Shown here one piece after another: positions 4,402 to 59,470 of a DNA stretch of 64,000 nt. The notes beneath the pieces are model-generated. The model was not told the DNA's origin and searched no databases. It worked only from the letters and a program-made list of their open reading frames with translations. Each line of letters starts with the position of its first letter. The stretch's first letter is position 1. The translations under genes were made by a program, and so were the position numbers. The stretch is from Hoylesella buccalis ATCC 35310 (GTDB lineage Bacteria; Bacteroidota; Bacteroidia; Bacteroidales; Bacteroidaceae): NCBI RefSeq assembly GCF_025151385.1, contig NZ_CP102287.1, positions 124,001-188,000 on the forward strand. The letters run 5' to 3'.

Positions 4402-4619
4402 TTGTGGAATATGCGAATGCTGCATTCGGCCATCTTGAAGAACATAGCGGTTAGGATGATGATGATTCCAAGCGTTTCTTTTTGTGTAAAGAAATAGAAG
4501 ATGACGCCTACCACGGCACCAATCATGAAGATGATGTTGAGTATGTTTCGAATCCAAAAGATTCTATCGCGTGGCGTTTCGCCTGTTCCTCTTTGTCGTC
4601 TTGGGTATTTTGCACTCAT
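4398..4619 (-). CDS. Small two-helix membrane protein
   Basis: A 73-residue protein with a basic N-terminus (MSAKYPRRQRG) and two hydrophobic segments, about residues 26-44 and 50-63. It lies just upstream of the porin gene on the same strand with a 4-base ATGA overlap. Family not recognised; a role in anchoring or expressing the neighbouring porin would be a guess. Confidence 0.6.
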   Translation of the reverse strand: MSAKYPRRQRGTGETPRDRIFWIRNILNIIFMIGAVVGVIFYFFTQKETLGIIIILTAMFFKMAECSIRIFHK

Positions 4620-4701
4620 ATAGATGTGGTGTTATCGCTTGAAAAAATAGTTTTTATTAGTGTTTCTGCCTGTCTGTTGATGCTCAGCCAGGTATGGTTT
4701 G

Positions 4702-5649: not shown

Positions 5650-5854
5650 AATTCAATCGGTTGATTCAGTCTACAAATGTATATATTTTCAGCGTAAATG
5701 ACGCACAATTTGAGAAGATTAACGAAAAAGGATGAAATCTGTTCCTTGCACTACAACCGCTGCAAGTTATACTTTCTCGCTGTTAGAAGAATATAAATTA
5801 CCTTACCCTATTTTACCAGTTTCTAATTCCTGTTGCTGGTGCCATGATAGAGTC

Positions 5855-6079
5855 TCATCCCAACTGTCCTCCCATTCTTTTGCACAGACTGGCGATGTCG
5901 TCTACCATACTTTCAAACGATTGCGTATGTACAAAGCCATAGTGCTTGTCTATGAAGTCAATACCCTTGAAGCGACTCAGATAGCCGAAAGCCTCTTTCA
6001 TGGTAAGGCCGAACCGCTTGCCAAACTCATGAATGAAAATCATCGTCCATTCTAATTTGTCTTCTTTGCTGTATTCCAT
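5855..6079 (-). CDS. DUF3791-like small protein
   Basis: A 74-residue acidic protein containing FGLTMKEAFGYL, GIDFIDKHYGFVHTQS and CKRMGG, the pattern of the DUF3791 family. Such proteins often sit beside a DUF3990 partner in what look like toxin-antitoxin-type pairs (family knowledge). No DUF3990-like frame is visible on either side here, so this looks like an orphan. It lies between the DUF4468 gene and that gene's decayed duplicate. Confidence 0.6.
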   Translation of the reverse strand: MEYSKEDKLEWTMIFIHEFGKRFGLTMKEAFGYLSRFKGIDFIDKHYGFVHTQSFESMVDDIASLCKRMGGQLG

Positions 6080-6469: not shown

Positions 6470-6860
6470 CGCGTATGATTTTTCTTGACAAACTACCTCT
6501 TCATATTTCACGTATTTACCATCAACTGGTCTTTTGGTTGTAAATACGCCAAAATTTAGCTATTTTTATATGTTGTTGATAGCTAATAATTTATGAGAAT
6601 CTTGCGTCGGATGAGCTGGAAGTTCATGTCTTCTTATGGCAAATACCATTGCTTTAAGGGCGCAATTTACATGCTTTTACCCGATAATATCCTACAGATT
6701 GGACACCAAAGACATTCTTTTAATTGGGTAAAAGCAATGAGTTTAGGGTGAAAACTGATTTTTCTTGACAATAATTCTCAAGTTTACATCCTGTTTGCCT
6801 ATCAATTTTTTCTAGATTGAAAGTTTGTTAGTGCCGTTTTTAGGGCATTTCTTGGTAAAA
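6470..6860. repeat. Dispersed ~380-bp intergenic repeat, copy A
   Basis: Shares ordered blocks with 39522-39900 and 49150-49530: TTTTTCTTGACA at the left end, AATACGCCAAAAT in the body, an inverted pair TGCTTTTACCC / GGGTAAAAGCA, and a right-end block near 6800-6850 with TTTTTTCTAGATTGAAAG and GTGCCGTTTT. No convincing protein frame is conserved among the copies. The remainder of 6311-6937 holds the duplicated DUF4468 upstream region and no gene. Confidence 0.65.
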
Positions 6861-6937
6861 AAAGAAGACGATATACTTATTACAATGTGTAATGATTCAG
6901 TTCTGCTCATGCAAATGCTGAACGTTGAATGGTGAAG

Positions 6938-8974
6938 TTATTTTTGTTCCAACATCGCCTGCAACCTCACGATTTCATCCCTGTACTGAGCGGCTTGCAG
7001 GAAATCTAAGTCCTTGGCTGCTTGTTTCATCAAGGCAGTGGTGTTGGCAATGCTCTTCTCAAGTTGTTCGCGCGTCATTCGCAATACAATCGGGTCGGCT
7101 GCAAAGGCGCCACTCTCTGCCTCCATATACGCCTGTTGGGCGGCAAGGGTGGGGTAGCGCCAATCTTTCTCATTCTCTTTCGAGGTGGGCAATGCGTTCT
7201 TGATTTCCTTGACAATCTGCTGTGGCGTGATGTGGTGTTCCTCGTTGTATTTCAGCTGAATGGAGCGGCGGCGAGCGGTTTCGTCGATGGTGCGCTGCAT
7301 GCTTTCGGTGATGGTGTCAGCATACATAATTACTTTTCCGTTGACATTGCGTGCGGCGCGTCCTGCCGTTTGCGTCAAACTACGGTGACTTCGCAAAAAC
7401 CCTTCCTTGTCAGCGTCAAGGATGGCCACGAGCGATACCTCTGGTAAATCCAGACCCTCGCGCAGCAAGTTGACCCCAACCAAAACGTCAAAAACGCCGG
7501 CACGCAGGTCGGTCATGATCTTTACGCGGTCCAGCGTGGCCACGTCGCTGTGGATGTAGTTGGCACGCACGTCATGATTGAGCAGGTATTCGGTCAGCTC
7601 CTCGGCCATACGTTTGGTCAGCGTGGTGACCAGGACACGTTCTTCGCGTTCGGTGCGTTGCAGAATTTCGTCCAAAAGGTCGTCAATTTGGTTTTCGCTG
7701 GGGCGCACATCAATCTCCGGATCGAGCAATCCCGTGGGTCGGATGATTTGTTCTACCACGACCCCTTCAGCCTCTTGCAGCTCATAGTCGGCAGGGGTGG
7801 CCGAAACGTAGATGGTCTGATGGAGCATGTCGTGGAACTCTTCAAAGCGCAGCGGACGATTGTCAAACGCTGCTGGCAGGCGGAATCCGTACTCCACGAG
7901 ATTCTGCTTACGGGCCCTGTCGCCACCGTACATGGCACTGATTTGCGGCACGCTGACGTGACTCTCGTCGACAACAAGTAGGAAATCTTTTGGAAAGAAG
8001 TCTAAAAGGCAATAAGGCCGCTGACCGGCTTCACGTCCGTCAAAGTAGCGCGAATAGTTCTCAATGCCGCTGCAGTGGCCCAGTTCCTTAATCATCTCTA
8101 TGTCGTATTCCACACGTTCCTTGATGCGTTGTGCTTTGATGGTGTCACCAAGGTCGTTGAAATAGTCAATTTGCTTCACCAAGTCGTCCTGAATGGCACG
8201 GATGGCGTGCTCGGTCTGTTCTTTTGTCGTAACGAAGAGATTGGCGGGGTAAATGTGATATTCCTCAAATTCTTCCAATCGATGGAAGGTCACACTGTCC
8301 ACTTCCTCGATGCTGTCAATCTCTTCGTCCCACCAGGTGATGCGAAGAATGTTGTTGGAGTAGGCCATCGCGATGTCTACCGTATCGCCCTTGACGCGAA
8401 AATTGCCACGTTGCAGGTCGATGTCATTGCGAACATACAGTGCTTCCACCAACTTCCGTAAAAAATCATTACGATCTAATCGTTCTCCTTTCTTCACCGT
8501 AATGATGCTGTTGGTCATGGCCGAGGGGCCTCCCATGCCGTAAATGCACGAAACGGAAGACACGACAATGACGTCTTTTCTTCCTGATAACAAAGCACTT
8601 ACCGCACTCAAACGCAGGCGGTCTATCTCGTCGTTGATGGCCAAGTCTTTCTCAATATACAGGTCGGTCGTAGGAAGATAAGCCTCGGGTTGATAATAGT
8701 CATAATAAGATACATAATACTCTACTGCGTTCTCGGGGAAAAAGCCCTTCATCTCTTCGTAGAGTTGGGCTGCCAGCGTCTTGTTATGACTCAGAATCAG
8801 CGTTGGCATTTGTACGTTGTTGATGACGTTGGCCACCGTGAAAGTCTTGCCCGATCCGGTTACACCGAGCAACACCTGAGCTGGATCACCCCGTTGAATG
8901 CCATCGGTGAGTTGCTGAATGGCTTCTGGTTGGTCGCCCGTAGGTTTGTATTTTGACGTGAGTTTGAAATTCAT
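6938..8974 (-). CDS. uvrB: UvrB, excinuclease ABC subunit B
   Basis: UvrB receives damaged DNA from UvrA, opens the strands with its helicase-like motor and beta-hairpin, and recruits UvrC for dual incision in nucleotide excision repair. Visible features are Walker A (GVTGSGKT, about residues 38-45), the Tyr-rich beta-hairpin (YYDYYQPEAY near residue 92), the DESH Walker B box, helicase motifs IV-VI including QTAGRAARN, and a C-terminal UVR motif (about 630-670). The 678-residue length equals that of typical UvrB. It is monocistronic. A possible promoter -7 box (TACTTTTG on the minus strand) lies at 9028-9035. Confidence 0.97.
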   Translation of the reverse strand: MNFKLTSKYKPTGDQPEAIQQLTDGIQRGDPAQVLLGVTGSGKTFTVANVINNVQMPTLILSHNKTLAAQLYEEMKGFFPENAVEYYVSYYDYYQPEAYLPTTDLYIEKDLAINDEIDRLRLSAVSALLSGRKDVIVVSSVSCIYGMGGPSAMTNSIITVKKGERLDRNDFLRKLVEALYVRNDIDLQRGNFRVKGDTVDIAMAYSNNILRITWWDEEIDSIEEVDSVTFHRLEEFEEYHIYPANLFVTTKEQTEHAIRAIQDDLVKQIDYFNDLGDTIKAQRIKERVEYDIEMIKELGHCSGIENYSRYFDGREAGQRPYCLLDFFPKDFLLVVDESHVSVPQISAMYGGDRARKQNLVEYGFRLPAAFDNRPLRFEEFHDMLHQTIYVSATPADYELQEAEGVVVEQIIRPTGLLDPEIDVRPSENQIDDLLDEILQRTEREERVLVTTLTKRMAEELTEYLLNHDVRANYIHSDVATLDRVKIMTDLRAGVFDVLVGVNLLREGLDLPEVSLVAILDADKEGFLRSHRSLTQTAGRAARNVNGKVIMYADTITESMQRTIDETARRRSIQLKYNEEHHITPQQIVKEIKNALPTSKENEKDWRYPTLAAQQAYMEAESGAFAADPIVLRMTREQLEKSIANTTALMKQAAKDLDFLQAAQYRDEIVRLQAMLEQK

Positions 8975-10104: not shown

Positions 10105-10443
10105 ATGGATTACAAAAAGTCAAACGCACCCGTCAACACGACTACACGCAACATTATGGAATTGTGTGATGAGACGAGAAACATCTATGAGAGTGTGGCA
10201 ATCATTGCGAAGCGTTCTAATCAGATTGCAGCAGAGATTAAACAGGATTTGAATAAAAAATTGACAGAGTTCGCGTCTTACAACGACTCTTTGGAAGAGG
10301 TGTTTGAGAATCGTGAGCAAATAGAAATTTCGCGTTATTACGAGAAGTTGCCCAAACCTACTTTGCTGGCAACACAGGAATTTATAGAAGGTAATGTTTA
10401 TTACCGTGATCCTTCTTTGGATAATAACGACAGTCAGGCATGA
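10105..10443 (+). CDS. rpoZ: RNA polymerase omega subunit (Bacteroidetes RpoZ-like)
   Basis: A 112-residue protein. Residues near 30-60 (NIYESVAIIAKRSNQIA through EIKQDLNKKLTEFAS) match the omega/RPB6 core that latches onto the beta-prime subunit during RNA polymerase assembly. The C-terminal part ENREQIEISRYYEKLPKP is characteristic of the Bacteroidetes version. It lies 124 bases after the bamD-like gene and overlaps the next gene by 4 bases (ATGA). Confidence 0.85.
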   Translation: MDYKKSNAPVNTTTRNIMELCDETRNIYESVAIIAKRSNQIAAEIKQDLNKKLTEFASYNDSLEEVFENREQIEISRYYEKLPKPTLLATQEFIEGNVYYRDPSLDNNDSQA

Positions 10444-10895
10444 TTCAACGAAAGCAAACGCTGTACCTGCTATTGGCTCTAATAGTGACGGTGGCATGTC
10501 TGTGCATGCCTGTATCCATGCTCGAACCGCAAGGGATGGGGCTGTCTACCTTGATTTATAACCTTGGGACAGTAGTGCCCGATCAAGGAATCAATTTCAG
10601 CAACTGGCCTCTTTTCGCCCTGTTGGTAGTGACCATCCCTTTAGAAGCCTGCGCTATTTTTTTATACCGCAAACGACCCTTGCAGGCTAAACTTTGCGTA
10701 TGGAGCATTGTTTTCTGTCTGGCATGGTATGTTTATTATGCATTCGCCCTGCTGAATGGTTTTGGTCATGAGTATACCTTCCATCTTCAGTTTGCGGCAT
10801 GTCTACCTTTGGTTGCCATCATCGCATTAGTTTTGGCGCGCCGGGGTATCATTCACGATGAAAAATTGGTGAGGTCAGCTGACCGAATCAGGTAA
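10440..10895 (+). CDS. DUF4293 four-helix membrane protein
   Basis: A 151-residue protein with four predicted membrane helices (about residues 6-25, 56-77, 87-105 and 115-135) and short polar termini. It matches the DUF4293 family, which has no known function but is typically downstream of the Bacteroidetes omega subunit gene. Its start codon overlaps the rpoZ stop, so translation is probably coupled. Confidence 0.75.
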   Translation: MIQRKQTLYLLLALIVTVACLCMPVSMLEPQGMGLSTLIYNLGTVVPDQGINFSNWPLFALLVVTIPLEACAIFLYRKRPLQAKLCVWSIVFCLAWYVYYAFALLNGFGHEYTFHLQFAACLPLVAIIALVLARRGIIHDEKLVRSADRIR

Positions 10896-10950
10896 TACAT
10901 TAGTTTAAATGTTGCTTTGGCAACAGGCCAAATAACAAATAATCAAAGAG

Positions 10951-10990
10951 AATCGGCTGTATGAATTTAGAATCATACAGCCGATTTTAC
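10951..10990 (+). terminator. Intrinsic terminator of the bamD operon
   Basis: The inverted repeat AATCGGCTGTATGA / TCATACAGCCGATT with a short loop is followed by a T-rich run. The remaining part of the gap to 11204 holds no gene. It contains a perfect 18-bp palindrome at 11162-11179 (TTCAACGAG / CTCGTTGAA) just beyond the end of the leftward lipoprotein gene, which could help end that transcript. Confidence 0.8.
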
Positions 10991-11204
10991 TTATTGTGCT
11001 CTGCATGAGCAGGAATAGAAGGGGGATGCTTGGAATGATTTTCCGAGTCAGTCGAGAATGTTTTTGCAGGTCAGTAATCACTTACTAACTGGTTTTCTAC
11101 ATACTTGAAAAGCACTGCCATGCATTTTACTTATCATTTTCTTTTACTTCTTCTAAGCAATTTCAACGAGCTCGTTGAAGCATCTCCGATCTTTTTAAAG
11201 TTCG

Positions 11205-12626
11205 CTACATCAAGTTTACTTTCCACACCATTACGCCTCCGTTGGTATAAAGGAAGGCTACGATGACAGACTTCTTGTCGGGTGCTATTTGCGTGACGAC
11301 ATCTGCCGTAGTATTGATATTGGCACCGTATGCGGGATCAATTGGGAACTCAAGCCACCCATTCCATTTGCGCGTATGTGCCAATAGTTGTGTGTTGGTG
11401 GTAGTTCCAGCTGGATCTTTCATTACCAATCGAACATTGTAAATCTCTCTCATCCAGTTATTTACATCTCCTTCGATGTAAAACATGTATTTTGCTCCCA
11501 TCAAATCTACATAATCGAATGCAGTTCCTCCGCCAAGCCACTGGTGGAAAATACCTTGCACATGATGTGACGAGGAATAAAGAGGTTTGTTGGTATGGCC
11601 GTCCATGTACGTGATGGCTACCTTAGGTTTTCCTTCATCGTAGCGTGAAATGAAATAGTTGCTATTTTTACCAAACTCTATAGGTACGATTTGGGGCATT
11701 AGGCCCATTTGGTAACCTGGGTCATATTGTATCTTTTCAGGTTGTTGCGATACAGGTTTTCCGTTTTTGATTTCCCATCTGAGGAAAACGTTCTGGAACG
11801 AAACGCCCATATACAAGAATGCATGCTCCTTGATGTTGCCTTTGACGTAGAATTTTCTACCTACGTCTTTGTTTCCTGCGAATTCATCTAAGTTAACATC
11901 ATACGAAAACAGCAGTTTGGGTTTGGCGTTTACACCCTCCCACCAAAACATGTGTATGGTGCTGGTGCCGTCTTTGGGCATCCATCTATTCATGTAGAAG
12001 TTGGTTGAAACAATGTTTCCAGCATCGTCGTTGGCTATAAATAAGGGTACGGTGCGGGTAAGTGTATTCCAGTCAACCCCCTCCATAGACAAAGTGCCTG
12101 CCTTTGTTCCGTCTTTCAGATTGTAATAGTCAAACTTTGTGCGTTCGTGTATGACCAAATAATCTCCACTGATGGCCAAGCCGCCGTTATTGTGCTTAAC
12201 GAAATTCAGTTGGGATCCTGTCTTTCTCCACAGCTCATCTACTTGGATGGCTGTTGGAACCACTTTCAAATCAACTGTATATGTTTTCTTGTCCCCATTG
12301 GCTGCAATAACATCAAAGCTCACAGGCTTTGTAAAATCCATGTATTGCCCAAGTGGTATGCTTGATTCTACTATCGCGTTGTTGGGAGCGTTTACTGACA
12401 TTCTGATTTTTGTCAGATCAGTCTTGATGCTTCCGTCCATTTCGAGGTTGATCATGTTGTTGGCATCAGGAGCAACGGTGAAATCTGATTTTGTGCCATC
12501 TGGTAACATAATCGTTATGCCACTAATGTCATTGCCTGTTGTGGGTACCAATGTATCTGCTTCTTGGCACGAAAACATGAGCAGTAGGCCAAGAACTGAC
12601 ACCGTAATTTTATCTATTGTTTTCAT
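11205..12626 (-). CDS. PUL surface lipoprotein (DUF5018-like, SusE/F position)
   Basis: A 473-residue lipoprotein with lipobox LLMFSC near residue 20. The N-terminal part (about 25-125) reads as an Ig-like domain of the DUF5018 type (DISGITIMLPDGTKSDF, then KPVSFDVIAANGDKKTYTVDLKV). The remaining 340 residues are rich in Trp and Tyr, with repeating beta segments that could form a propeller. It is the last gene of the leftward SusC/SusD locus and so probably sits on the cell surface and binds the glycan. The family name is tentative. Confidence 0.65.
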   Translation of the reverse strand: MKTIDKITVSVLGLLLMFSCQEADTLVPTTGNDISGITIMLPDGTKSDFTVAPDANNMINLEMDGSIKTDLTKIRMSVNAPNNAIVESSIPLGQYMDFTKPVSFDVIAANGDKKTYTVDLKVVPTAIQVDELWRKTGSQLNFVKHNNGGLAISGDYLVIHERTKFDYYNLKDGTKAGTLSMEGVDWNTLTRTVPLFIANDDAGNIVSTNFYMNRWMPKDGTSTIHMFWWEGVNAKPKLLFSYDVNLDEFAGNKDVGRKFYVKGNIKEHAFLYMGVSFQNVFLRWEIKNGKPVSQQPEKIQYDPGYQMGLMPQIVPIEFGKNSNYFISRYDEGKPKVAITYMDGHTNKPLYSSSHHVQGIFHQWLGGGTAFDYVDLMGAKYMFYIEGDVNNWMREIYNVRLVMKDPAGTTTNTQLLAHTRKWNGWLEFPIDPAYGANINTTADVVTQIAPDKKSVIVAFLYTNGGVMVWKVNLM

Positions 12627-12644
12627 TGTTATGCTTGATTAAGT

Positions 12645-14282
12645 TTACCATTTATCTATTTGCTTGCATTTCGGATTATTTTTGATTTCCGATGCCGGTA
12701 TTGGGAATTGATAATATCGTTCTTCAAAATGTCGGTCTTTACCGTCGCAGTCAATTATCTGGTAATTGAAGGTTCCGTCTGCTTGCTTGGTTATCTTCAT
12801 GCCGTGCATACGTTTGCCTCCTAATACTTCTAAAGCCATGTTCCAGCGTCTTAAGTCCCAATAACGTTGGCCTTCAAAGGCAAGTTCTATCTTCCGTTCT
12901 TCGCGAATAATGTTCCGCAGACTCTCTTGGCTCGTAGGTGAAACAGCAGGTAGCTTTGCTCTACTTCTTACTTTGTTCAATGGGATAAGAGCTTCAGCGG
13001 TCTTACCCATCTCGTTGAGTGCTTCAGCTTGGTTCAATAGTACTTCTGCATAGCGTACTTCGTTCCAACAGGTGGTGCCTTTGACGGTCATGTCCTTGAC
13101 GCTTTCGTTCAGCAATTTGCGTATATAGTAGCCAGTAGTAGTGGCGTTTGGGTACGCCTCAATGTCAAACGGCTTAAATCCATCTTTACCTCCCACGAAA
13201 GTTTCAATGGTTCTTCCCTTCCAGGTAGCACCATTATACAGAATGGAAGCGTAAAAGCGAGGCTCCCTGTTCTTATATGGGTTGGCGGCATGCGTTGGGT
13301 TGTTCCAATCGAAACTGCTTCCGTCAGCCATTCGATAGGAGTCTACAAGCTCTTGTGTTGGAACAGCTAAACACTTTCCATCCGTATTGGTTTCAGGGAA
13401 GTCACCTTTCGGACTATATTGCTTGTCAAAGAGCGTTGAATGCGTTAGCTGACCATGGAAACGATAGCCTAAAACGGTTTCCTTGCAAAAGTCGGGTTGA
13501 TTGAATACGTCTGCATAATTTGGCATAAGGTCATATAGCTCTCCCTCTTTCGCCACTACCTTTGCAGCGGCTTCAGCAGCCTTGTCCCAGCGCTTGGCAT
13601 ACAACATGGCACGCGACTTGAATCCATAAACAGCACCCTTGGTGATGCGTCCTAAATCCTTCTTGGGCCAAGTGTCGGGCAAGTTCTCTGCGGCAAAATC
13701 AAGGTCGCTTTCAATAAAATCCCAGCATGCGGATTCGGGACTTCTTTCCTTGAATGCCTCATTGGGACCGTCGATGTAATCGCGAATTACAACGCTGCCA
13801 TGCCCCCTTACCAGCATGAAATAAAGGTAAGCCCTGAAGAAACGTGCCTGTGCCTCCATTATCAGTTTCTCCTGGTCACCGTATTTTGCATAGGTCTTTA
13901 ATCCGTACAAAAATTCGTTAATGCGCCTGATGCGGTTATATTCGTATGTATAATCACTCAGGGGATTGCCTTGTGGACTGATATTTCCGGTGTAGACCAC
14001 CTTGTTGACATCACCTCCGGATCCGCCCATGACATTTGCGCTGTACCGAAGAATGTCAGAGAAACCATCAGTAAGGCTTACTCCAGCGTATTTTACGCCA
14101 TAAGGTCCGTATTCGTAAATAGGTTTGTAAAAGCCATTGATGTACAAATAGGTATTGTCTACGGAACTCCACGCATCCATCTCGGTATATTGTGCTCTTG
14201 GTTCAGGATCTAAAAAATCAGAACAAGCTGATAGAATGAATGCGGATACCAAGATTGTCAAGATATTGTTAATAGTTTTCAT
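12645..14282 (-). CDS. SusD/RagB-family outer membrane glycan-binding lipoprotein
   Basis: A 545-residue lipoprotein with lipobox ILSAC and the mature N-terminus SDFLDPEPRAQYT, typical of SusD proteins. The C-terminal RagB/SusD domain shows the hallmark WNEVRYAEVLLNQAEALN, IREERKIELAFEGQRYWDLRRW and a closing IPASEIKNNP segment. SusD proteins act as a lid on their SusC partner and bind oligosaccharides. It lies 17 bases downstream of susC and 18 bases upstream of the lipoprotein gene, so the three are co-transcribed. Confidence 0.95.
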   Translation of the reverse strand: MKTINNILTILVSAFILSACSDFLDPEPRAQYTEMDAWSSVDNTYLYINGFYKPIYEYGPYGVKYAGVSLTDGFSDILRYSANVMGGSGGDVNKVVYTGNISPQGNPLSDYTYEYNRIRRINEFLYGLKTYAKYGDQEKLIMEAQARFFRAYLYFMLVRGHGSVVIRDYIDGPNEAFKERSPESACWDFIESDLDFAAENLPDTWPKKDLGRITKGAVYGFKSRAMLYAKRWDKAAEAAAKVVAKEGELYDLMPNYADVFNQPDFCKETVLGYRFHGQLTHSTLFDKQYSPKGDFPETNTDGKCLAVPTQELVDSYRMADGSSFDWNNPTHAANPYKNREPRFYASILYNGATWKGRTIETFVGGKDGFKPFDIEAYPNATTTGYYIRKLLNESVKDMTVKGTTCWNEVRYAEVLLNQAEALNEMGKTAEALIPLNKVRSRAKLPAVSPTSQESLRNIIREERKIELAFEGQRYWDLRRWNMALEVLGGKRMHGMKITKQADGTFNYQIIDCDGKDRHFEERYYQFPIPASEIKNNPKCKQIDKW

Positions 14283-49982: not shown

Positions 49983-51125
49983 ATGAAAACAATACCAAGT
50001 ACAAGAGTCGTTTTTAATAGACATAATACTGCATCAAGAACAAATACAGCAGCTGTCTACATTGAAGTATCTTACCAAGGAAAAAGAAATTTCTATAATA
50101 CAGGAATAAAGGTTAAGATAAATCAGTTCAGAAATAATCGTATCTGCAACTGTGGACATCAGAAGGAATATAATGAGCGCATTGACACCATTCGCAACTC
50201 AATTGATGACTACATCAACTCTAAACTTGAGAACAGGGAGCCATTCGCGCTTGATGGTCTGAGAGAATACATGGAGAACAATGGGTGCGCATTGCAAAAG
50301 GATGCTTTCCTTACATTCATGTATCAACGTATTTATGAAAGACAAATATCGGAAGGTACACGAAAGGGACATCTGTCCGTATATAACATTCTAAAAAGGT
50401 GGGGAAAGATAAAGGAGTTCTCTGATGTTAATCAGCGAAACATTTTATTGTGGAATGATTTGTCAACGAAGAATGCTATTAAGACAAAGTCCATATACAA
50501 CTATCACAAAGTGCTGAAAATCTACATCCGTGAGGCAAAGATCTTCGGATATATACAAAACAATCCTTACGATGTTCTACATTTTAAGAGATGTGAATGT
50601 ACCGACCGTAAATACCTATCAATTGATGAGTTAAACAAATTTAAGTCCGTGGAGCTGAAAGAAATACCACTTATCAAAGCCAGGGATTGCTTCTTGTTCC
50701 AATGCTATACAGGTTTGGCATATACGGACATGGCTCATTTCAATTTTGAAGAAATGGCAAAGTTTGTGGACGGTGCCTATCGTGTCAAAGAGGAACGTGT
50801 CAAAACAGGGAACAAATATAACATCACGTTGCTTCCTCCTGCTATGGATATTCTAAAAAAATATGACTACAAATTACCAGTGCAATGTATGCAGGTATAT
50901 AATAGAAATCTGCAAGCCATACAATATAGGGCTGGCATAGAAACAAGGTGTAGCAGCCACGTTGGGCGTCATACGTTTGCTGTCATCTGCCTGAATAACA
51001 ACGTCCGTATCGAGGTGGTCAAAGAGTTCTTAGGACATAAGGACATAAAAACTACGGCTATTTACGCAAAAATTGTAGACAAGACGGTTAATAAGGCATT
51101 CGATAATCTAAAAAATGCTTTCTAA
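49983..51125 (+). CDS. int: Tyrosine recombinase (integrase)
   Basis: A 380-residue Bacteroidetes-type integrase: N-terminal DNA-binding region, SAM-like core-binding domain (about 95-195) and catalytic domain with TGLAYTD (box I region, where many Bacteroidetes integrases have Ala at the classical Arg position), KTGNKYNITL, HVGRHTFA (His-x-x-Arg near residue 320) and FLGHKDIKTTAIYAKI with the nucleophile Tyr (near residue 360). It inserts the element next to tRNA-Arg. Confidence 0.93.
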   Translation: MKTIPSTRVVFNRHNTASRTNTAAVYIEVSYQGKRNFYNTGIKVKINQFRNNRICNCGHQKEYNERIDTIRNSIDDYINSKLENREPFALDGLREYMENNGCALQKDAFLTFMYQRIYERQISEGTRKGHLSVYNILKRWGKIKEFSDVNQRNILLWNDLSTKNAIKTKSIYNYHKVLKIYIREAKIFGYIQNNPYDVLHFKRCECTDRKYLSIDELNKFKSVELKEIPLIKARDCFLFQCYTGLAYTDMAHFNFEEMAKFVDGAYRVKEERVKTGNKYNITLLPPAMDILKKYDYKLPVQCMQVYNRNLQAIQYRAGIETRCSSHVGRHTFAVICLNNNVRIEVVKEFLGHKDIKTTAIYAKIVDKTVNKAFDNLKNAF

Positions 51126-51814: not shown

Positions 51815-51943
51815 GATTTGTATATTTATTAAGCTACATAGATGATTATTTCGTATTTTTATGCTTTTTAGGTTGTCGCTCCACCATTTTTTTTGCGCTT
51901 TCATGAAATACTTACATAGACACACAGATTTGTTTTCATGCAT

Positions 51944-52192: not shown

Positions 52193-53107
52193 TTAATCAT
52201 AAATTTCATGCAACTGATAATAATTATTTACCATGACTTTGAATTGAAGTTCTGTTTCTGAAAGGTGTGGCATCGTTTTCTTTATCTCTTCTACCATCTT
52301 TCGAGCAGACATCACGAATTTTGTGCAAACTCGTTTTGCATGATTCCAAATCACATATCTGAACCGCACTCCATCATCATTCAGCTTTGTATATGTCACT
52401 GGCACACACTTGGCGTAATAGGGCATTCTCGTTTTTTTATTGATGGCTTTGAATGAGTGTGGCTCACCTGCCTTGCATCGCTCTATCCGCATTTCTGTTC
52501 TCGAAAAGATACCTCTCTCTACAAGATCTTTCAATATCCTGTTTACCTTAATTCTGCTCAACCCAGTTTTCCTTGCTACGCTTTCCTGCGTGATAGTGCG
52601 AGTTCCACAAGATAGGTTGTCAATCTTTCGACCGCCCTCTGTTGACTTATACTCAGAATCATCATCGTATTCCTTGCGTACAAGTGCTTCCTCGATTAAA
52701 CGAACTAATTTGGCAAGTGGTAAGGTGCGCCTGTCTTCTCTCTTTTCGGAAAGATAACACTGCGGTACCTCTATTGTGAAAACATCATCTGCGTAATACT
52801 TCGTCTTGTAATTCCTGCGTGGCTCATGTCCTACCTTGTCTTTACAAGATTTGGCAAACAAACGGTGTTTCTTGTCAGCAAAATGAAACAACTCCTCATC
52901 CTTACGCATATTAACTTCCAACTTCTTGGCAGTCGTAAAGCTAATATGATAAAACTGCATGAGGGTCTTCGTACTGAAATCGTATAATATAGAATTGGCA
53001 AAGGCGAACTTCATACCGAGCCATGCAGCAAGAACTTCTTTCTCGTCCTTACTGAATCTTCTACTGTCAGTCAGTCTTCTCGGCATGTTAAAACACCGCC
53101 TTTTCAT
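52193..53107 (-). CDS. Winged-helix-type DNA-binding protein of the mobile element
   Basis: A 304-residue basic protein. A helix-turn-helix lies at about 165-200 (TITQESVARKTGLSRIKVNRILKDLVERGIFSRTE), followed by beta strands as in a winged helix. The N-terminal half has a second helical region (about 25-70). It could be a replication initiator-like or regulatory protein; no family is recognised with confidence. It is divergent from the RNA-guided locus, so it may regulate that promoter (inference). MPRRLTD at 53086 is an alternative start. Confidence 0.7.
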   Translation of the reverse strand: MKRRCFNMPRRLTDSRRFSKDEKEVLAAWLGMKFAFANSILYDFSTKTLMQFYHISFTTAKKLEVNMRKDEELFHFADKKHRLFAKSCKDKVGHEPRRNYKTKYYADDVFTIEVPQCYLSEKREDRRTLPLAKLVRLIEEALVRKEYDDDSEYKSTEGGRKIDNLSCGTRTITQESVARKTGLSRIKVNRILKDLVERGIFSRTEMRIERCKAGEPHSFKAINKKTRMPYYAKCVPVTYTKLNDDGVRFRYVIWNHAKRVCTKFVMSARKMVEEIKKTMPHLSETELQFKVMVNNYYQLHEIYD

Positions 53108-53152
53108 TGTTATATGATATAATTAATGAGTTGTTATCTTTTAATATGTCTG

Positions 53153-53183
53153 CAAAAATAGAAAATAATCTAACACGAACAAA
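53153..53183 (-). promoter_or_regulatory. Promoter of the winged-helix gene
   Basis: On the minus strand TTTG (53180-53183) and TATTTTTG (53153-53160) are separated by 19 bases. A second TATCTTTG overlaps the -33 position (53180-53187). Confidence 0.55.
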
Positions 53184-53316
53184 GATAATGCAACGAAAAT
53201 ATTAGAAAATAATATATATTAACAGAATGTCATCTCTAAACATAATTATATATAGGATAATCTTACCGCATAATAGTTATATAGTGTTAATATCAAAATT
53301 ATTTCTTAGAAAATCA

Positions 53317-53363
53317 TTGCTATAATTAGATTATCTATTATCTTTGCGCTCGTAATCTAATTA
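53317..53363 (+). promoter_or_regulatory. Promoter bracketed by an 11-bp inverted repeat, start of the RNA-guided locus
   Basis: TATCTTTG (53339-53346) has a weak ATTG -33 element (about 53316-53319). A perfect inverted repeat TAATTAGATTA (53323-53333) / TAATCTAATTA (53353-53363) flanks the -7 box, with the right arm on the expected transcription start. This is operator-like. No other TAnnTTTG box is seen before the Cas12-like gene or before the downstream small genes. Confidence 0.6.
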
Positions 53364-53528
53364 CAAAGCGTTATTTGACTATTTGGCACAGTTAAGCTGA
53401 AAGGTGCTATGGGTAGCAGAAATGCCGTAACCTCATAGTGGACTGAATAGGCGGCTATTTATTTGAATTTTGAATTATATGCCAAAAGTCAGAAAATCCT
53501 CAATTATTTTATAGACTGATAAGAACAT

Positions 53529-53703
53529 GAGCTTGGGGTTCGTGGTCGCTACGGCATAGAGCAATATAATCCTATACCTATATAATATTGAATATAGATA
53601 TGGGATAAGGAGTATGCCGTTCAACTCGGCTCGTTGGTGGAGGTTGTGGTAATGAGTTGCGGGTTCGATTCCTGCTTCATAGCGGTCTATCAACACCAAG
53701 CTC
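53529..53703 (+). ncRNA. Multi-helix structured RNA domain with tRNA-like T-arm
   Basis: Nested perfect or near-perfect helices can be drawn: GAGCTTGG 53529-53536 with CCAAGCTC 53696-53703; GGTCGCTA 53544-53551 with TAGCGGTC 53680-53687 (two wobbles); CGGCATA 53552-53558 with TATGCCG 53613-53619; a 15-bp near-perfect stem 53569-53583 with 53592-53606; and GCGGG-TTCGATT-CCTGC at 53659-53675, which has T-arm sequence. A D-arm-like CTCGTTGGTGGAG lies just upstream. No coding frame fits. It lies in the leader of the Cas12-like gene. Confidence 0.65.
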
Positions 53704-53764
53704 ACTCTGCACTGAAATATGGTGCTACAATCGAATTGGGAGTGGGTTCAAAAAAAATAATTCG

Positions 53765-53835
53765 AGCGGGCTGTACCGCTTTAAGCTGAGGGAAATTTTA
53801 CCACTCGGTAAGTATCCTAACAATTTGTTATGCAA
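53765..53835 (+). ncRNA. tracrRNA-like module A
   Basis: Hairpin 1: AGCGG-GCTGTA-CCGCT (53765-53780). Hairpin 2: CTGAG (53786-53790) with CTCGG (53804-53808). A tract with CAATTTGTTATGC (53821-53833) resembles the reverse complement of part of the array A repeat. The GCTGTA loop is complementary to the TACAGC end of the repeats. The same architecture recurs before array B with covarying stems. Confidence 0.65.
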
Positions 53836-53852
53836 GTAGTTATAATAAACAT

Positions 53853-54019
53853 AGTGTATAGCATACTAATTTGTGTGGTACATACAGCGAACTGGCAAAC
53901 CATCCGAATCGGTTTGGAGTGTATAGCATACTAATTTGTGTGGTACATACAGCGCTTTCTTCACCAGTATCTTCCGACCGATTAGTGTATAGCATACTGA
54001 TTTGTGTCGTAAATACAGT
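53853..54019 (+). CRISPR. CRISPR-like array A (three 36-nt repeats, two spacers)
   Basis: Repeats at 53853-53888 and 53918-53953 are identical (begin AGTGTATAGCATACTAATTT, end GGTACATACAGC). The third at 53984-54019 is degenerate (A to G, G to C, C to A and C to T changes), as terminal repeats usually are. Spacers are 29 nt (53889-53917) and 30 nt (53954-53983) and are unrelated to each other. The array lies 34 bases before the start of the Cas12-like gene and on its transcript. No Cas1 or Cas2 gene is present. Confidence 0.75.
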
Positions 54020-54053
54020 GAGCGCAATAAAAAAAATAAACATCTACTTAAAT

Positions 54054-55187
54054 ATGGTCATTACAAGAAAGATTGAAGTCTTTGTGTGCGAGGACGACAA
54101 AGACTTGCGTAGGTCGTACTACGATAAACTTTACGACAACAGAAATATAGCCGTTCAAGTTGCAAATATGGGTGTTTCACATTTATTTATATTGGATAAT
54201 ACTACTCCTTATCTATCAGAAGAAAATAGGGAAAATTTGGAATATCTCGGATGTAAGGGTCAGAAAGCAACCAAGCAAAATGCTCCATACGTTGCAGCAA
54301 GTGAGAAATTTAAAGGAAAGATAGATATGGGTATGGTATCAAGTATATTGCAGAACGCACAGAAAATGTACCAAGACGACCGCAAGCAAGGTATGTGGAA
54401 GCGCTCACTGCGCTCATACAAATCAAATATGCCGATACCATTTAAGGCGGATAGGTTTCTCAATCTTCGCTTTGCTGACTATCAAGACAAAGATGGTAAA
54501 ACGCACAACGGATGTTTCTTCACTTTGATTGGTGTTCTGTTTCAGTGCAAGCTTGGTCGGGACAGGAGCGGTAATAGATTGATTGTAGAAAGAGTAATCA
54601 GTGGTGAGTATAAGATGTGTACATCATCTCTGAAATTCGACAAGAATAAGGTGTTTCTGCTCCTTTGCGTGGATATACCAAAACAAGAAGTCAAGGTTGA
54701 TAAAAATAAGCAACTATTCGCTTTCTTGGGTGTTATGAATCCTATCGTATGCACTACCGATGTGAAAGCATACAAAGAGTGTGATAACGGTTTTAAGACA
54801 TTTGAGATAGGCACTAAGGATGAGTTTAACTACAGAAGAAGGCAGATACAAGAAGCAGTTAAACGCTGTCAAATCAATAACAAATACTCTGCTGGTGGCA
54901 AAGGAAGAAAGAAGAAGTGTCAAGCCATAGACAGATGGCATGACAAGGAGAATAACTATGTGGACACCAAACTTCATACTTATTCTCGTATGCTGGTAGA
55001 TTTAGCCATCAAGCACAGATGCGGTACTATCGTTTTGATGAACCAAATCCACAGAGAGGAAAAAGCGAAAGAGGATAATCAGAACGGAGAACCATTCGTG
55101 CTGCGTAATTGGTCTTACTACGGCCTGAAAGAGAAAATTGGTTACAAGTGTAAAATGTCGGGAATAACACTGAAAGTTGAAAAATAA
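54054..55187 (+). CDS. Compact nuclease-dead Cas12/TnpB-like protein
   Basis: A 377-residue protein whose C-terminal half follows the TnpB/Cas12f-type layout: the RuvC-I strand region FAFLGVMNPIV (222-231), a basic helix with GGKGRKKK (281-288), the bridge-like NNYVDTKLHTYSRMLVDLA (300-318), the RuvC-II strand GTIVLMNQI (324-332), and RNWSYYGLKEKIGYKCKMSGI (351-371). In alignment with the family pattern, the RuvC-I Asp is Phe224 and the RuvC-II Glu is Met329. The protein stops where zinc finger and RuvC-III would follow, so cleavage is not expected. The start at 54054 avoids the repeats; an open frame runs back through the array to 53871. Likely role: RNA-guided DNA binding without cutting (inference). 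Confidence 0.75.
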   Translation: MVITRKIEVFVCEDDKDLRRSYYDKLYDNRNIAVQVANMGVSHLFILDNTTPYLSEENRENLEYLGCKGQKATKQNAPYVAASEKFKGKIDMGMVSSILQNAQKMYQDDRKQGMWKRSLRSYKSNMPIPFKADRFLNLRFADYQDKDGKTHNGCFFTLIGVLFQCKLGRDRSGNRLIVERVISGEYKMCTSSLKFDKNKVFLLLCVDIPKQEVKVDKNKQLFAFLGVMNPIVCTTDVKAYKECDNGFKTFEIGTKDEFNYRRRQIQEAVKRCQINNKYSAGGKGRKKKCQAIDRWHDKENNYVDTKLHTYSRMLVDLAIKHRCGTIVLMNQIHREEKAKEDNQNGEPFVLRNWSYYGLKEKIGYKCKMSGITLKVEK

Positions 55188-55199
55188 AAAATGATATTC

Positions 55200-55265
55200 G
55201 GGGTGGCTGTACACCCTTAACACGAGGATTATTCACTCGTGAAATCACTTACAATTCTGTATATC
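55200..55265 (+). ncRNA. tracrRNA-like module B
   Basis: Homologous to module A. Hairpin 1: GGGTG-GCTGTA-CACCC (55201-55216), same loop with a different stem. Hairpin 2: CACGAG (55221-55226) with CTCGTG (55236-55241). A conserved tract contains TTACAATTCTGTATATC, in which ATCACTTACAATT is complementary to the repeat B segment AAATGTAGGTGAT with two mismatches. No separate promoter is seen, so it is probably read from the Cas12-like gene transcript. Confidence 0.65.
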
Positions 55266-55284
55266 AGACAGATACACGAAACAT

Positions 55285-55386
55285 GGTGTTAATGCACTAT
55301 AAATGTAGGTGATATACAGCTATCCACCGAAGGGGCTGCTGTAATGGCATCGGTGTTAATGCACTGTAAATGTAGGTGATAACAGC
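55285..55386 (+). CRISPR. CRISPR-like array B (two repeats, one spacer)
   Basis: Repeats at 55285-55320 (36 nt, begins GGTGTTAATGCAC, ends GATATACAGC) and 55352-55386 (35 nt, one A/G change and one missing T) flank a 31-nt spacer (55321-55351). The repeat is related to that of array A (both start xGTGT and end ATACAGC) but clearly distinct. A degenerate half repeat follows at 55416-55435. Confidence 0.72.
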
Positions 55387-55415
55387 GTGATACATAGTAA
55401 TAATATAATAATAAA

Positions 55416-55435
55416 AAATGTAAGTAATATGCAGC
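55416..55435 (+). repeat. Degenerate 3' half of repeat B overlapping a start codon
   Basis: AAATGTAAGTAATATGCAGC matches the last 20 bases of repeat B at 17 positions. It follows the last full repeat after 29 bases, a spacer-like distance. The ATG at 55429-55431 inside it is the best start codon of the next gene. Confidence 0.6.
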
Positions 55436-55644
55436 AATTAGATCAAAAGGTTGAAGGTAAGGACATGATGCAATTTATGGCAGACCTTCTTGAAAAGAAT
55501 GAGAAACAAGAGATTGAAATTGAGAGAGGAAAGTTATCAGTTTCTATCCTCAAACAAATGAATAACTATTCTCGGCTAAAACTTGATGCGGAAAAATTTG
55601 AGTTGAAAAAAGCAGAAAGTGGTCTCCTTAATATAGGAGAATAA
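55429..55644 (+). CDS. Small charged helical protein
   Basis: A 71-residue protein (MQQLDQKVEGKDMMQF onward), rich in Glu and Lys, predicted mostly helical or coiled. It is immediately downstream of array B, with its start inside a degenerate repeat. No Shine-Dalgarno-like sequence is evident. Function unknown; as the first gene after the guide-like module it is a candidate partner of the Cas12-like protein or a target of its control (inference). Confidence 0.6.
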   Translation: MQQLDQKVEGKDMMQFMADLLEKNEKQEIEIERGKLSVSILKQMNNYSRLKLDAEKFELKKAESGLLNIGE

Positions 55645-55650
55645 ACAACT

Positions 55651-55977
55651 ATGAAACTCAAAGACGAAGAAAAGCCATACTACCTTGTGGACTTTTGCCG
55701 AAAGAAAGACAACCAGCAGATAAAGGTAGTAGATACGGACGATGACGAGATTAAAGCATTCTTGTTTGGTATATTCTCAAACAAGAGAAAACCAACAGGA
55801 AAAGCAGAAGCTAAAGATGGTACACTAATTCGGGTTAGGTGTATTAACACAAAAGACTGCACAAGCCAAAAGGTCGCAAATCTACGAGTGTATAATATGT
55901 CACCTACGCAGGCTCGAATATATACCATTAAGTGCATGAAACATTATTTCCAAAACGAAACAGTAAATGATTTTTGA
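55651..55977 (+). CDS. Hypothetical phage protein
   Basis: A 108-residue protein (MKLKDEEKPYYLVDFCRKK) with alternating beta and helix, Asp-rich VVDTDDDEI, and a basic middle (SNKRKPTGKAEAKDGTLIRVRC). It begins 6 bases after the previous gene and overlaps the next by 11 bases. No family recognised. Confidence 0.65.
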   Translation: MKLKDEEKPYYLVDFCRKKDNQQIKVVDTDDDEIKAFLFGIFSNKRKPTGKAEAKDGTLIRVRCINTKDCTSQKVANLRVYNMSPTQARIYTIKCMKHYFQNETVNDF

Positions 55978-56493: not shown

Positions 56494-58458
56494 ATGAACA
56501 TTAAATTTAAAAAACTGGAAATTGAGAATTTCAAAGGGGTAAAATCATTGTCCTTCGACTTTGCTTCTGATATCACGAATATTCTCGGAGCCAACCATAC
56601 GGGTAAAACAACCACTGCAGACGCTATTATGTGGGTGCTATTCGGAAAAAACAGCGATGGGCAAGCGGTGTTCGGAATTGATCCGAAAGATGAAAACAAT
56701 AATGTGATTAACAATTTGGAGAATATTGTTACGCTGACTGTTTCTGCTGACAACAGGAAACTCGTGCTAAGAAAAGTGCGTAAAGAAATATGGAGTAAAC
56801 CGAAAGGACAGTTTGAGGATGCACTAACAGGACATACCACAGAGTGTTTCATCAATGGTAACAAATACACAATCAAGGATTACCAGGCGGAGGTGAACGC
56901 TTTGTGCAACGAGGCTCTATTTCGCGCCATCACTAACCCCGCATATTTCCCAAGCCTGAAGGCGGAAGAACAGCGCGCCTTGCTCATAAAAATGGTGGGA
57001 GATATGTCTCTCTCTGAAATAGCAAAACAAAAAGATGAGTTTAAGCGATTGGTTGATGAGTTGGTTGGGCAGGATTTGAAGGAGTACCGTAGCCACCTCT
57101 CATATCAGATAAAAGGTATAAAGACCGAAATAGAGAGTATCCCAAACAAGATTACCGAAAATCAACAAATCTTGCAGGGTCTATCTGATGAGGTGTCTGA
57201 TTTCGCAGCTATTCGTAAAAGACTGAACGAAATTGATGAGGATATAAAAAAGTATGATGACCAGTTGCAGGACGCATCGGCTAAACTCTCGCAAGACTAC
57301 GAAAAAAAAGCTGCGCAACGACAACTCGTTAATTCCCTGAAAGATAAACAACAGGAGATTGTTAATAAAATCGAAAGTGAAAACCGAGCAAAGCGTGCAG
57401 AACATGAGAATGCACTGAACGCCATACAGCAAAAGCTGAAAAACACGGAATATTCGCGCGACATGAAAGCTGACGCATTGCGCATGAAGAAGCAAGAACT
57501 ACAACAGATAGAATTGCGTGCCGATGAATTTCGTAAAAAATGGGAAGAGGTAGAGAGTAAAGCATTCGTATGGAATGAAGACCAAGAAATATGCCCGAAT
57601 TGTGGACAGCGACTGTCGTCTGAAAACATTGAGGAGTTGAAAGAGAAAGCGCATGAGCAGTGGACAGTTAGGCACATGGCTGAGCAGGATAGGTTGGATG
57701 TGGAGGCGAAGGCACTGAAAGATACAAAACAGCGAATCGAAGCGGAGCTGAACGAACTGCAAACGAAAATTGACATGCTAACCACAGAGGTCTCTTCCGT
57801 GCAGGGTCAGGAAAACGAACTGAAGGCTTACAAGGTGGAACAGGTGGACTACCATGATAATGATGATTGGAAACACCTGTCGCTACAAATCGAACAGCAG
57901 GAAGCAAAACTTAATGATATTTGTAAGGATGGAGAATCTTCTACCACACAGATGATTAAGGATAAAAAACAAGAGTTGATACGGCAACGTGATGAACTCA
58001 ACCTATCGCTTTCAAAAGAAAAGCTCATAGCAGAGAGGGAAGAACGCATTGAACAGCTTACCATGCAGATGAAGCAACTTAATCAGCAACTGACGGATTT
58101 GGAACGCAAGGATTATACGGCTGCTAATCTTGAATTGGCTTCTATTCAAAACTTGGAGGAAAGGGTTAATAAACTCTTTATGCTCATCAAGTTCAAGATG
58201 TTTGAAACGTTACTCAACGGCTCAACAAAGCCTACATGTGTGCTGACTATGCACGGTGTGCCGTATAACGATTTATCCAACAGCGAGAAAATCAATGCTG
58301 GCATTGACCTAATTCGAGCAATGAATACTTACAACGACATGTATGCGCCCATCATCATTGATAATGCAGAGAGTTGCAACGACATTCTTCCTACTTCCTG
58401 TCAGCAAATTCGTCTTGTGGTAAGTCGTGATGAGCAATTGACGGTCGTAAAAGAATAA
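56494..58458 (+). CDS. Rad50/SbcC-like ATPase of the phage recombination module
   Basis: A 654-residue SMC-type protein. It has an N-terminal head with the ATP loop GANHTGKTTTADAI (near 31-44), long coiled coils (about 190-360 and 405-560), a zinc-hook-type CPNCGQRL (about 367-374), and a C-terminal head with SNSEKINAGIDLIRA (signature) and APIIIDNAES (Walker B). It would tether or process DNA ends. It lies next to RecT, as in many phage recombination operons. No SbcD-type nuclease gene is next to it; the MBL-fold protein may serve. Confidence 0.85.
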   Translation: MNIKFKKLEIENFKGVKSLSFDFASDITNILGANHTGKTTTADAIMWVLFGKNSDGQAVFGIDPKDENNNVINNLENIVTLTVSADNRKLVLRKVRKEIWSKPKGQFEDALTGHTTECFINGNKYTIKDYQAEVNALCNEALFRAITNPAYFPSLKAEEQRALLIKMVGDMSLSEIAKQKDEFKRLVDELVGQDLKEYRSHLSYQIKGIKTEIESIPNKITENQQILQGLSDEVSDFAAIRKRLNEIDEDIKKYDDQLQDASAKLSQDYEKKAAQRQLVNSLKDKQQEIVNKIESENRAKRAEHENALNAIQQKLKNTEYSRDMKADALRMKKQELQQIELRADEFRKKWEEVESKAFVWNEDQEICPNCGQRLSSENIEELKEKAHEQWTVRHMAEQDRLDVEAKALKDTKQRIEAELNELQTKIDMLTTEVSSVQGQENELKAYKVEQVDYHDNDDWKHLSLQIEQQEAKLNDICKDGESSTTQMIKDKKQELIRQRDELNLSLSKEKLIAEREERIEQLTMQMKQLNQQLTDLERKDYTAANLELASIQNLEERVNKLFMLIKFKMFETLLNGSTKPTCVLTMHGVPYNDLSNSEKINAGIDLIRAMNTYNDMYAPIIIDNAESCNDILPTSCQQIRLVVSRDEQLTVVKE

Positions 58459-58513: not shown

Positions 58514-59470
58514 ATGACAACAGAAAACAAAACACAATCGGTGGCTACACAGCCTCTTTCACAAAACCAAACAGCCCTTGCACGCACAGTGGATAATATC
58601 TCTCAACAGGTACTGCAACGGGTGTCTACTATGCAAAAAGCAGGTGAAATTGTATTACCAAAAGGATATGAAGCAGGGAATGCGCTTAAGTCGGCATGGC
58701 TTTACCTCCAAAACGTACAAACAAGGGATAAGCAGAAAGCTATTGACACTTGCACGAAAGAAAGCATAGCTAACTGCTTGTTAGACATGGTAGTGCGTGG
58801 AGAACACCCTATGCAACATTGCTACTTCATTCCTACGGGTAATCAGCTTTCTTTTTGGGAAAGATACACAGGCAAGCTGATGCGAGCAAAGCGAGACACA
58901 GACATTGTGTCTGTCAATGCGCAGGTGGTATATGAAGAGGATAATTTCGTGTACACGGTGGACGACCGTGGTGTTCTGCAGCTTGTAAAACACGAAACCT
59001 CTATGGCAAACATGGATAATGCCAAAATAGTGGGTGCATACGCAGTTGTTGTGTATAAAAACGGCTCAACTCGCCTTGAAGTAATGACTATGGATATGAT
59101 ACGCAAGGCATGGGGACAGGGTGCCGCTCGTGGAAATAGTGGGGCGCACTTGAATTTTACAGACCAAATGGCAAAGAAAACGGTTATCGCAAGGGCTTGC
59201 AAGATAGAACTTGATAGCACCGAAGATGGGCATACCGATGATGAGGCTTTTATGGCTCAACCCAAAGGTGATGTGGAACGAGATATCGTAAACAGTACTT
59301 CTGACAACGTAGAACAAACAAAAAAGATAGCTACTGAACATCAAGATGACTTTGAGGATTCAGCTTCTTACGAGGAAATAAAGGAAGCCCCACAAAGTGA
59401 GAATAAAGGTGCAAATGATTTGTTTGAGAATACGCAGAATGCACAAGGCTCTCGCAAATGTCCAATCTAA
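58514..59470 (+). CDS. recT: RecT-family single-strand annealing protein
   Basis: A 318-residue protein with the RecT core: residues about 50-235 contain ALKSAWLYLQNV, SIANCLLDMVVRGEHPMQ, CYFIPTGNQLSF and the C-terminal core TDQMAKKTVIARACKIEL. Past about 245 the tail is acidic and low-complexity, as is common. RecT anneals complementary single strands during phage recombination or replication. Its stop overlaps an upstream in-frame start option of the next gene. Confidence 0.92.
   Translation: MTTENKTQSVATQPLSQNQTALARTVDNISQQVLQRVSTMQKAGEIVLPKGYEAGNALKSAWLYLQNVQTRDKQKAIDTCTKESIANCLLDMVVRGEHPMQHCYFIPTGNQLSFWERYTGKLMRAKRDTDIVSVNAQVVYEEDNFVYTVDDRGVLQLVKHETSMANMDNAKIVGAYAVVVYKNGSTRLEVMTMDMIRKAWGQGAARGNSGAHLNFTDQMAKKTVIARACKIELDSTEDGHTDDEAFMAQPKGDVERDIVNSTSDNVEQTKKIATEHQDDFEDSASYEEIKEAPQSENKGANDLFENTQNAQGSRKCPI

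Follow-up and report, generated by a model that had tools for sequence, protein, structure and literature searches.

A phage-borne Cas12f without catalytic residues and its tracrRNA–array cassettes: a predicted RNA-guided silencing system of Bacteroidales phages

The known dead member of the Cas12f branch activates transcription. The PDB entries 9n9c, 9n9m, 9n9o and 9n9q, which we take to be the dCas12f of the Bacteroidetes dCas12f–sigmaE RNA-guided transcription system, represent this protein; in that system, guides aim upstream of the genes to be activated. TldR proteins are TnpB-derived and have no CRISPR array, and their guide abuts a gene. One of them, a nuclease-dead TnpB of a temperate phage, uses a guide RNA to repress host flagellin (PMC13418256, accessible part). 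Type V-M Cas12m combines an inactivated RuvC domain with a CRISPR array and inhibits transcription of rival elements, being found on plasmids and in some prophages; a phage Cas9 with a dead RuvC has been proposed to act as a crRNA-sequestering decoy (both in the accessible part of PMC11656645). Viruses also carry mini-CRISPR arrays, which are short, hold spacers against related viruses and are associated with interviral conflict (PMC11656645; PMC6858448; accessible parts), and landfill phages encode type V effectors without RuvC motifs near arrays (PMC12607003, accessible part). None of the titles and abstract openings in our literature survey, which covered few subscription papers, describes the dCas12f phage family reported here, and the accessible parts of PMC13186708 and PMC12908284 contain nothing on it.

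The locus lies in a 64-kb stretch of the Hoylesella buccalis ATCC 35310 chromosome, the whole of which was analysed and is called the window; all positions are window positions unless a relative is named. An earlier, sequence-only reading had placed a 377-residue TnpB/Cas12-type protein with replaced catalytic positions and a missing C-terminus between two short repeat–spacer arrays. The open frame at 54054..55187 (+) indeed encodes 377 aa, and its similarity to Cas12, on which that reading staked its claim, is clear by both profile and fold. All five PADLOC models that match it bear the names Cas12f or Cas12u3 (Cas12u3 1.4e-54, Cas12f 2.4e-52), and 9n9c, matched at 1.2e-55, has 36% identity to it along almost the entire sequence. 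The 9n9c/9n9m dCas12f was the top match by sequence and, when a structure model was compared, by fold, with Cas12m structures ranking far below those of Cas12f; the likeness to Cas12f in sequence and fold extends over the entire effector. The model used is a later one, the first having reached a pLDDT of 49 from a shallow alignment. A host-transposon TnpB was rejected, as Cas12f profiles fit the frame far better than TnpB profiles and the frame stands among CRISPR arrays; a profile scan of ten neighbouring proteins gave no match to TnpA families. An ordinary type V-F nuclease was also rejected, its catalytic residues and Zn ribbon being missing here.

The catalytic replacements that had been read from the letters agree with an alignment to five intact relatives. 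In all 13 dCas12f rows the RuvC aspartate is replaced by F or Y and the glutamate by M, L or V, and the third RuvC aspartate and the Zn ribbon are absent, whereas all five intact long Cas12f proteins in the same alignment have D/E/D and the Zn ribbon. The L014 row was clipped at the end of its match, and the L014 frame stops 12 codons beyond. The window effector is truncated before RuvC-III and the Zn ribbon, and among the best 120 of 1058 homologues length is 376–419 aa, with identity of at least 74% and coverage of at least 99% of the query. To judge from these comparisons, the dead state of the phage dCas12f is fixed. Purifying selection acts strongly on the effector of close relatives, for which dN/dS was 0.020–0.062 in six comparisons among four phages; of the 36 comparisons made, 26, among them every one of the six that involve the window gene, had a saturated dS and hence no defined ratio. 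In a tree, 9n9c groups with the phage proteins, apart from the long Cas12f proteins; the tree is silent on whether loss of catalysis is shared because it holds three groups only and is rooted at the midpoint.

The two arrays are as had been described. Array 1 (53853..54019, +) has three 36–37-nt repeats, at 53853–53888, 53918–53953 and 53984–54019, of which two are identical over 37 nt and the degenerate third is 89% identical; their spacing is 65 and 66 nt, and the spacers at 53889–53917 and 53954–53983 measure 29 and 30 nt. Array 2 (55285..55386, +) has two repeats, at 55285–55320 and 55352–55386, which are 97% identical over 30 nt with a spacing of 67 nt, and a single 31-nt spacer at 55321–55351. 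Exact 37-nt copies spaced 65 nt apart are not due to chance. Because the third repeat is degenerate and the arrays are short, the window copy may be decaying.

Both arrays are preceded by a covarying, tracrRNA-like pair of hairpins of their own, which the sequence-only reading had not mentioned. Header 1 (53765..53815, +) and header 2 (55201..55247, +) both consist of a hairpin with a GCUGUA loop followed by a second hairpin, and match covariance model R1 at E 9e-14 and 1.9e-14 respectively; R1 was built from 24 headers of the window and its relatives, both window headers among them, and supersedes an earlier regular expression that was far too permissive. Across these 24 headers, 97.1% of 312 cells are paired and 10 of 13 pairs have changed on both sides. 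Shuffled headers were equally good in 0/500 cases on four measures and in 4/500 on the fifth, and pairing fell to 54% or less when the partner was moved by 1–3 columns. A search with R1, which left out L053, gave 55 strong header matches over 29 sources, two of them in the window; no further header was detected in the rest of the window or in the next 52 kb of chromosome.

A pseudoknot between loop and repeat is typical of Cas12f. The first loop (GCUGUA) can pair with the 3′ end of the repeat (UACAGC), and in 31 of 35 units all six positions pair, with G–U allowed; loop and repeat end vary together, as GUUGUA/UACAAC, GCUGCA/UGCAGC, GUUGGA/UCCAAC and GUUGCA/UGCAAC. Swaps between units with unlike loops give a mean of 5.0 pairs, but 213 of the 784 swaps are complete at 6/6, and the pairing is therefore conserved but not sharply specific. 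Repeat ends had in part been located by means of the loop-pairing criterion; when they were sought again without it, they were clear in four of five regions. After the second hairpin of header 2 an anti-repeat, AUCACUUACA, forms a perfect 10-bp helix with the repeat (fold z −5.67), the corresponding helix of cassette 1 being weaker. Over the 35 units, the longest anti-repeat helix averages 7.5 bp versus 6.4 in swapped pairs, for which the highest mean was 7.2. Both features expected of type V-F, a tracrRNA whose loop pairs with the repeat end and an array of regular period, are thus present at the window locus; the TldR arrangement does not fit it, since regular arrays and tracr-like headers are present.

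The sequence-only reading had regarded the two-locus layout as distinctive. The layout is real, and it is common to most of the 19 dCas12f loci that we counted (the window, L004, L012–L022, L024–L028 and L032, without L023, which nearly duplicates L022, and without shorter versions of contigs already counted). At least two cassettes occur in 16 of these loci, L012 having the most with six. In 15 of the 19 the dCas12f gene has a cassette on each side; the others are L014, L015, L018 and L032, three of which are cut or short. The long Cas12f genes L033–L037, for which short flanks only were compared, have one cassette each, directly downstream. Within the same bacterial family, 5 of 301 genomes carry such a long Cas12f gene, with intact catalytic residues and a single tracr–array cassette. 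Several relatives show oddities of their own. In L012, six tracr headers crowd into 2.5 kb around dCas12f (3362–5884), several of them with nothing but short or broken repeats behind them, which could be either a graveyard or a breeding ground of cassettes. In L021, next to an additional tracr header at 6160, the gene at 6519–7622 is built from some 20 repetitions of a 9-residue unit (NTGYQSAAT type), and tRNA genes lie 0.5–1.2 kb upstream of dCas12f in L019 (4633–4705), L022 (6748–6820) and L027 (7422–7495), two being Arg-CCT and one Ile-TAT.

Array 2 is followed by a gene for a 71-aa protein (55429..55644, +), which we call the partner. A homologue lies less than about 1 kb from dCas12f in 17 of the 19 loci, the match being weak in L016 and L032; none was found in L014 or in L015, the latter with only 356 bases of contig upstream. 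Searches of the 301 family genomes recovered the partner gene from exactly the two that have dCas12f, beside it in each; the six genomes with other Cas12f matches yielded none. Of 13 partner homologues, four are similar to a PHROG annotated as RNA polymerase beta subunit (E <=0.1, best 6.1e-5), a similarity that we treat as a lead, not as a function.

Carriage of the locus by an integrated phage-like element, as proposed earlier, is borne out by its surroundings. A tyrosine integrase gene lies at 49983..51125 (+; Pfam Phage_integrase 1.1e-13), and homology to a genome of the same species without dCas12f ends at 49996; the left end of the element is probably at the integrase start, near this position. 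Genes for tape measure, capsid, terminase, portal and primase proteins follow beyond the window. The 70 kb downstream gave no second copy of the tRNA-Arg 3′ end that would point to an attachment site at the tRNA, and the right end of the element was not located. A divergent gene at 52193..53107 (−) encodes a winged-HTH protein (HTH_Crp_2 1.4e-5, just below cut-off; HTH_24 4e-5, above; an O-like phrog 1.3e-4), which may be a regulator or resemble a replication initiator. Opposite it, the block of cassette, effector, cassette and partner heads a rightward early gene group that continues with an SbcC-like ATPase (56494–58458, +; phrog_77 3.4e-59) and a RecT annealing protein (58514–59470, +; RecT 7.1e-29). 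The Bacteroidetes −7 box is TAnnTTTG. One such box, a candidate promoter of the whole unit by consensus match only, lies at 53339..53346 (+), with no other on this strand within 53050–55700 and 41 on it across the window; its position would be compatible with one transcript across both cassettes.

Between this box and cassette 1 lies a long structured leader (53352–53745, +) with an 8-bp closing helix and a fold z of −2.0, which contains a stretch resembling a tRNA T-arm, GCGGGTTCGATTCCTGC. The leader has no Rfam match at E 1 and no similar DNA in the compared loci. At E <=1, Rfam models matched only a tRNA and a sub-threshold GP20-b between 49000 and 64000, the latter at 51860–51922 (−), within the element, with 24.5 of 36.2 bits. 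In another record, L030, the terminase large subunit gene appears to be split by an intein (10204–12831; genome 218204–220831; Intein_splicing 7.2e-4, below cut-off; Hom_end 1.9e-4, above).

A spacer search, which had been suggested as a check, yielded no target for the three spacers of the window and phage-gene protospacers for three spacers of its relatives. The window spacers have no exact 21-nt match in IMG/VR and weak matches only among 50,697 phage records; within three mismatches, spacer 1 matched only itself in 399 family genomes, as did spacers 2 and 3 in 150 genus genomes. Their best match, 21/30, falls within the element and is no better than what shuffled spacers achieve. Coincidences of 11-nt seeds of array-1 spacers at 30737 and 8488 were taken as chance, and so was a 16-mer with one mismatch.

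Among the relatives, a spacer of L022, GGACTACC..., matches 30/30 positions of a DEAD-box helicase gene in L046, an 11.8-kb contig that appears to belong to a different temperate phage because it carries an integrase and a terminase. A spacer of L018 matches 29/29 in the major capsid gene of its own 53-kb contig. A spacer of L004 matches 27/30 in an early gene of L021, 2 kb behind dCas12f and with a weak Sipho_Gp157 match; the first array parser had given false repeats, and after re-parsing this spacer is three bases shorter and matches at 25 of 27. These three are the only convincing targets for 82 spacers in the sequences compared, which included one target contig on account of its match; the same 82 spacers, each shuffled once, gave none at the same thresholds. 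Only matches of at least 90% were accepted, because shuffled spacers had scored high in a looser first pass, 26 of 81 attaining 70% and one of them 80%; a match of 24/30 between an L027 spacer and L017 was set aside as marginal. Besides the window spacers, three spacers were scanned in IMG/VR; one had a target outside arrays, and the other two matched their own arrays only. All three protospacers are intragenic and on the sense strand, and the guide would therefore pair with the template strand. Pairing to the template strand is the effective orientation for dead Cas12 roadblocks. The 5′ flanks (CTTTCA, GGAGGG and GTTTTG) share no consistent motif.

Spacer content changes more quickly than the effector. 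L004 and L021, whose dCas12f DNA is 97.9% identical, have a single spacer in common (of 10 and 6), and L020 and L026, with effectors 99.6% identical, share three (of 5 and 7); these counts are lower bounds because long arrays were incompletely parsed. Cas1, which the sequence-only reading had found missing beside the arrays, has no match in the genome that carries the window, nor in any of eight phage records, although for fragmentary records this is weak evidence of absence; it is present in two of the three host genomes of relatives that were searched.

We propose, with a probability of about 0.7, that this phage Cas12f without catalytic residues takes guides from its two tracr–array cassettes, binds phage genes and blocks their transcription without cutting, and that it would thereby silence genes of rivals and also, in one relative or more, those of the carrier itself. 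The relatives' guides match genes of other phages and, once, of their own phage, and silencing is therefore likelier than cutting. Each tracr would pair with the crRNAs of its own array, and the dCas12f–guide complex would bind the template strand of the target, forming a roadblock. It would hold rival phages down during lysogeny or at an early stage of infection; in at least one relative a late gene of the carrier would be held down too, where a cutting nuclease would hardly be survivable. The 71-aa partner may help the complex to act on DNA or RNA polymerase. The earlier suggestion of RNA-guided binding or silencing, perhaps for superinfection control, thus gains support from guide-RNA covariation, purifying selection and the three protospacers, all of them those of relatives.

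Alternatively, the guides might serve the phage's own life cycle, holding down its late genes in the lysogen, with matches to other phages as by-products. The perfect match of the L018 spacer to a capsid gene on its own contig and the position of the locus, opposite a divergent HTH gene and at the head of an early gene group, would fit this, and it overlaps with our proposal in content and hence in odds. However, the window spacers match nothing above chance in 64 kb plus 70 kb downstream, the contig with the helicase target has other phage genes and no sign of a dCas12f header, and fast spacer turnover fits an arms race better; we consider it unlikely as the whole explanation. A role as an RNA-guided transcription activator, in which an ECF sigma factor and RNA polymerase would be brought to guide-matched sites as in dCas12f–sigmaE, is suggested by the kinship with 9n9c/9n9m, which share the C-terminal truncation, by 16 Sigma70_r2 matches in the host that could be used in trans, and by the weak matches of four partner homologues to the RNA polymerase beta subunit PHROG. 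Yet Sigma70_r2 was found in none of nine dCas12f phage records, some of them fragments, and nowhere within 200 kb of the window copy, and all three protospacers are sense-strand sites within genes, not upstream of them. We prefer silencing because no sigma factor is linked and the known targets are intragenic, and regard activation as distinctly unlikely.

Two further explanations appear much less probable. A dead Cas12f with tracr and repeats could act as an anti-CRISPR decoy, sequestering crRNAs of a host Cas12f and so disarming host systems, and intact Cas12f with the same type of scaffold does occur in 5 of 301 family genomes. The scaffolds nevertheless differ, because repeat ends and facing loops differ, the five host Cas12f loci being of the UCCAAC/GUUGGA type and most phage ones UACAGC/GCUGUA; moreover, 29–31-nt spacers are kept in the arrays, some with full-length phage targets, and the genome carrying the window has neither Cas1 nor a second Cas12f-like match, which makes a decoy improbable. 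A decaying remnant without function would account for the degenerate third repeat, the short arrays and the lack of targets for the window spacers, and selection on the window gene itself is not measurable, dS being saturated. Against it stand the open frame, the length conserved in the best 120 of 1058 homologues, dN/dS of 0.02–0.06 in close relatives and the compensatory RNA changes, and we consider it very improbable indeed.

If blocking without cutting is the correct reading, it would amount to control of virus by virus through silencing, and phages would have reached CRISPR silencing as plasmids did with V-M, here from the Cas12f branch. A bolder version, for which we would give slightly less than even odds, is that temperate Bacteroidales phages possess a three-part, non-cutting system of immunity and self-control, made up of a dead Cas12f, a transcription-coupling 71-aa partner and several independent tracr–array cassettes, whose spacers would turn over without a phage Cas1 and silence early and late genes of rivals, even of sister phages with the same system, and of the carrier. 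The protein is a predicted natural DNA binder of a hypercompact 377 aa that comes with several scaffolds, and the ready-made protospacers make phage-against-phage control in gut and rumen testable. The family also raises the questions of why one effector has several distinct tracr–array pairs and how spacers turn over with no Cas1 found in the phage.

Among known systems, Cas12m would work alike if the silencing reading is right, and it shares with the phage effector a dead RuvC and an array; judged by its sequence and fold, however, the window effector probably belongs to the Cas12f branch, and it has tracr-like RNAs (for Cas12m, as given in the accessible part of PMC11656645). TldR is likewise a dead TnpB/Cas12-type protein of a temperate phage with RNA-guided silencing, which here is predicted, whereas the locus described here has CRISPR arrays with changing spacers, tracr-like headers and matches to phage genes (TldR after the accessible part of PMC13418256). 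Mini-CRISPR arrays, in the accessible parts of PMC11656645 and PMC6858448, carry host-type repeats and use the host system; here, in contrast, dead effector and tracr-like RNA are both supplied by the phage itself. The type V-F nucleases L033–L037 resemble the phage system in fold, tracr hairpins, loop:repeat pairing and the 65–66-nt period of the array, but they have D/E/D, a Zn ribbon and one downstream cassette each, where the phage protein has neither catalytic residues nor ribbon and usually at least two cassettes. The dCas12f of 9n9c, 9n9m, 9n9o and 9n9q is alike in its 36% identity and its truncation before the Zn ribbon and RuvC-III; unlike it, the effector described here is phage-borne, has no linked sigma factor that we could find, mostly comes with at least two tracr–array cassettes and a 71-aa partner of its own, and has its known targets inside phage genes.
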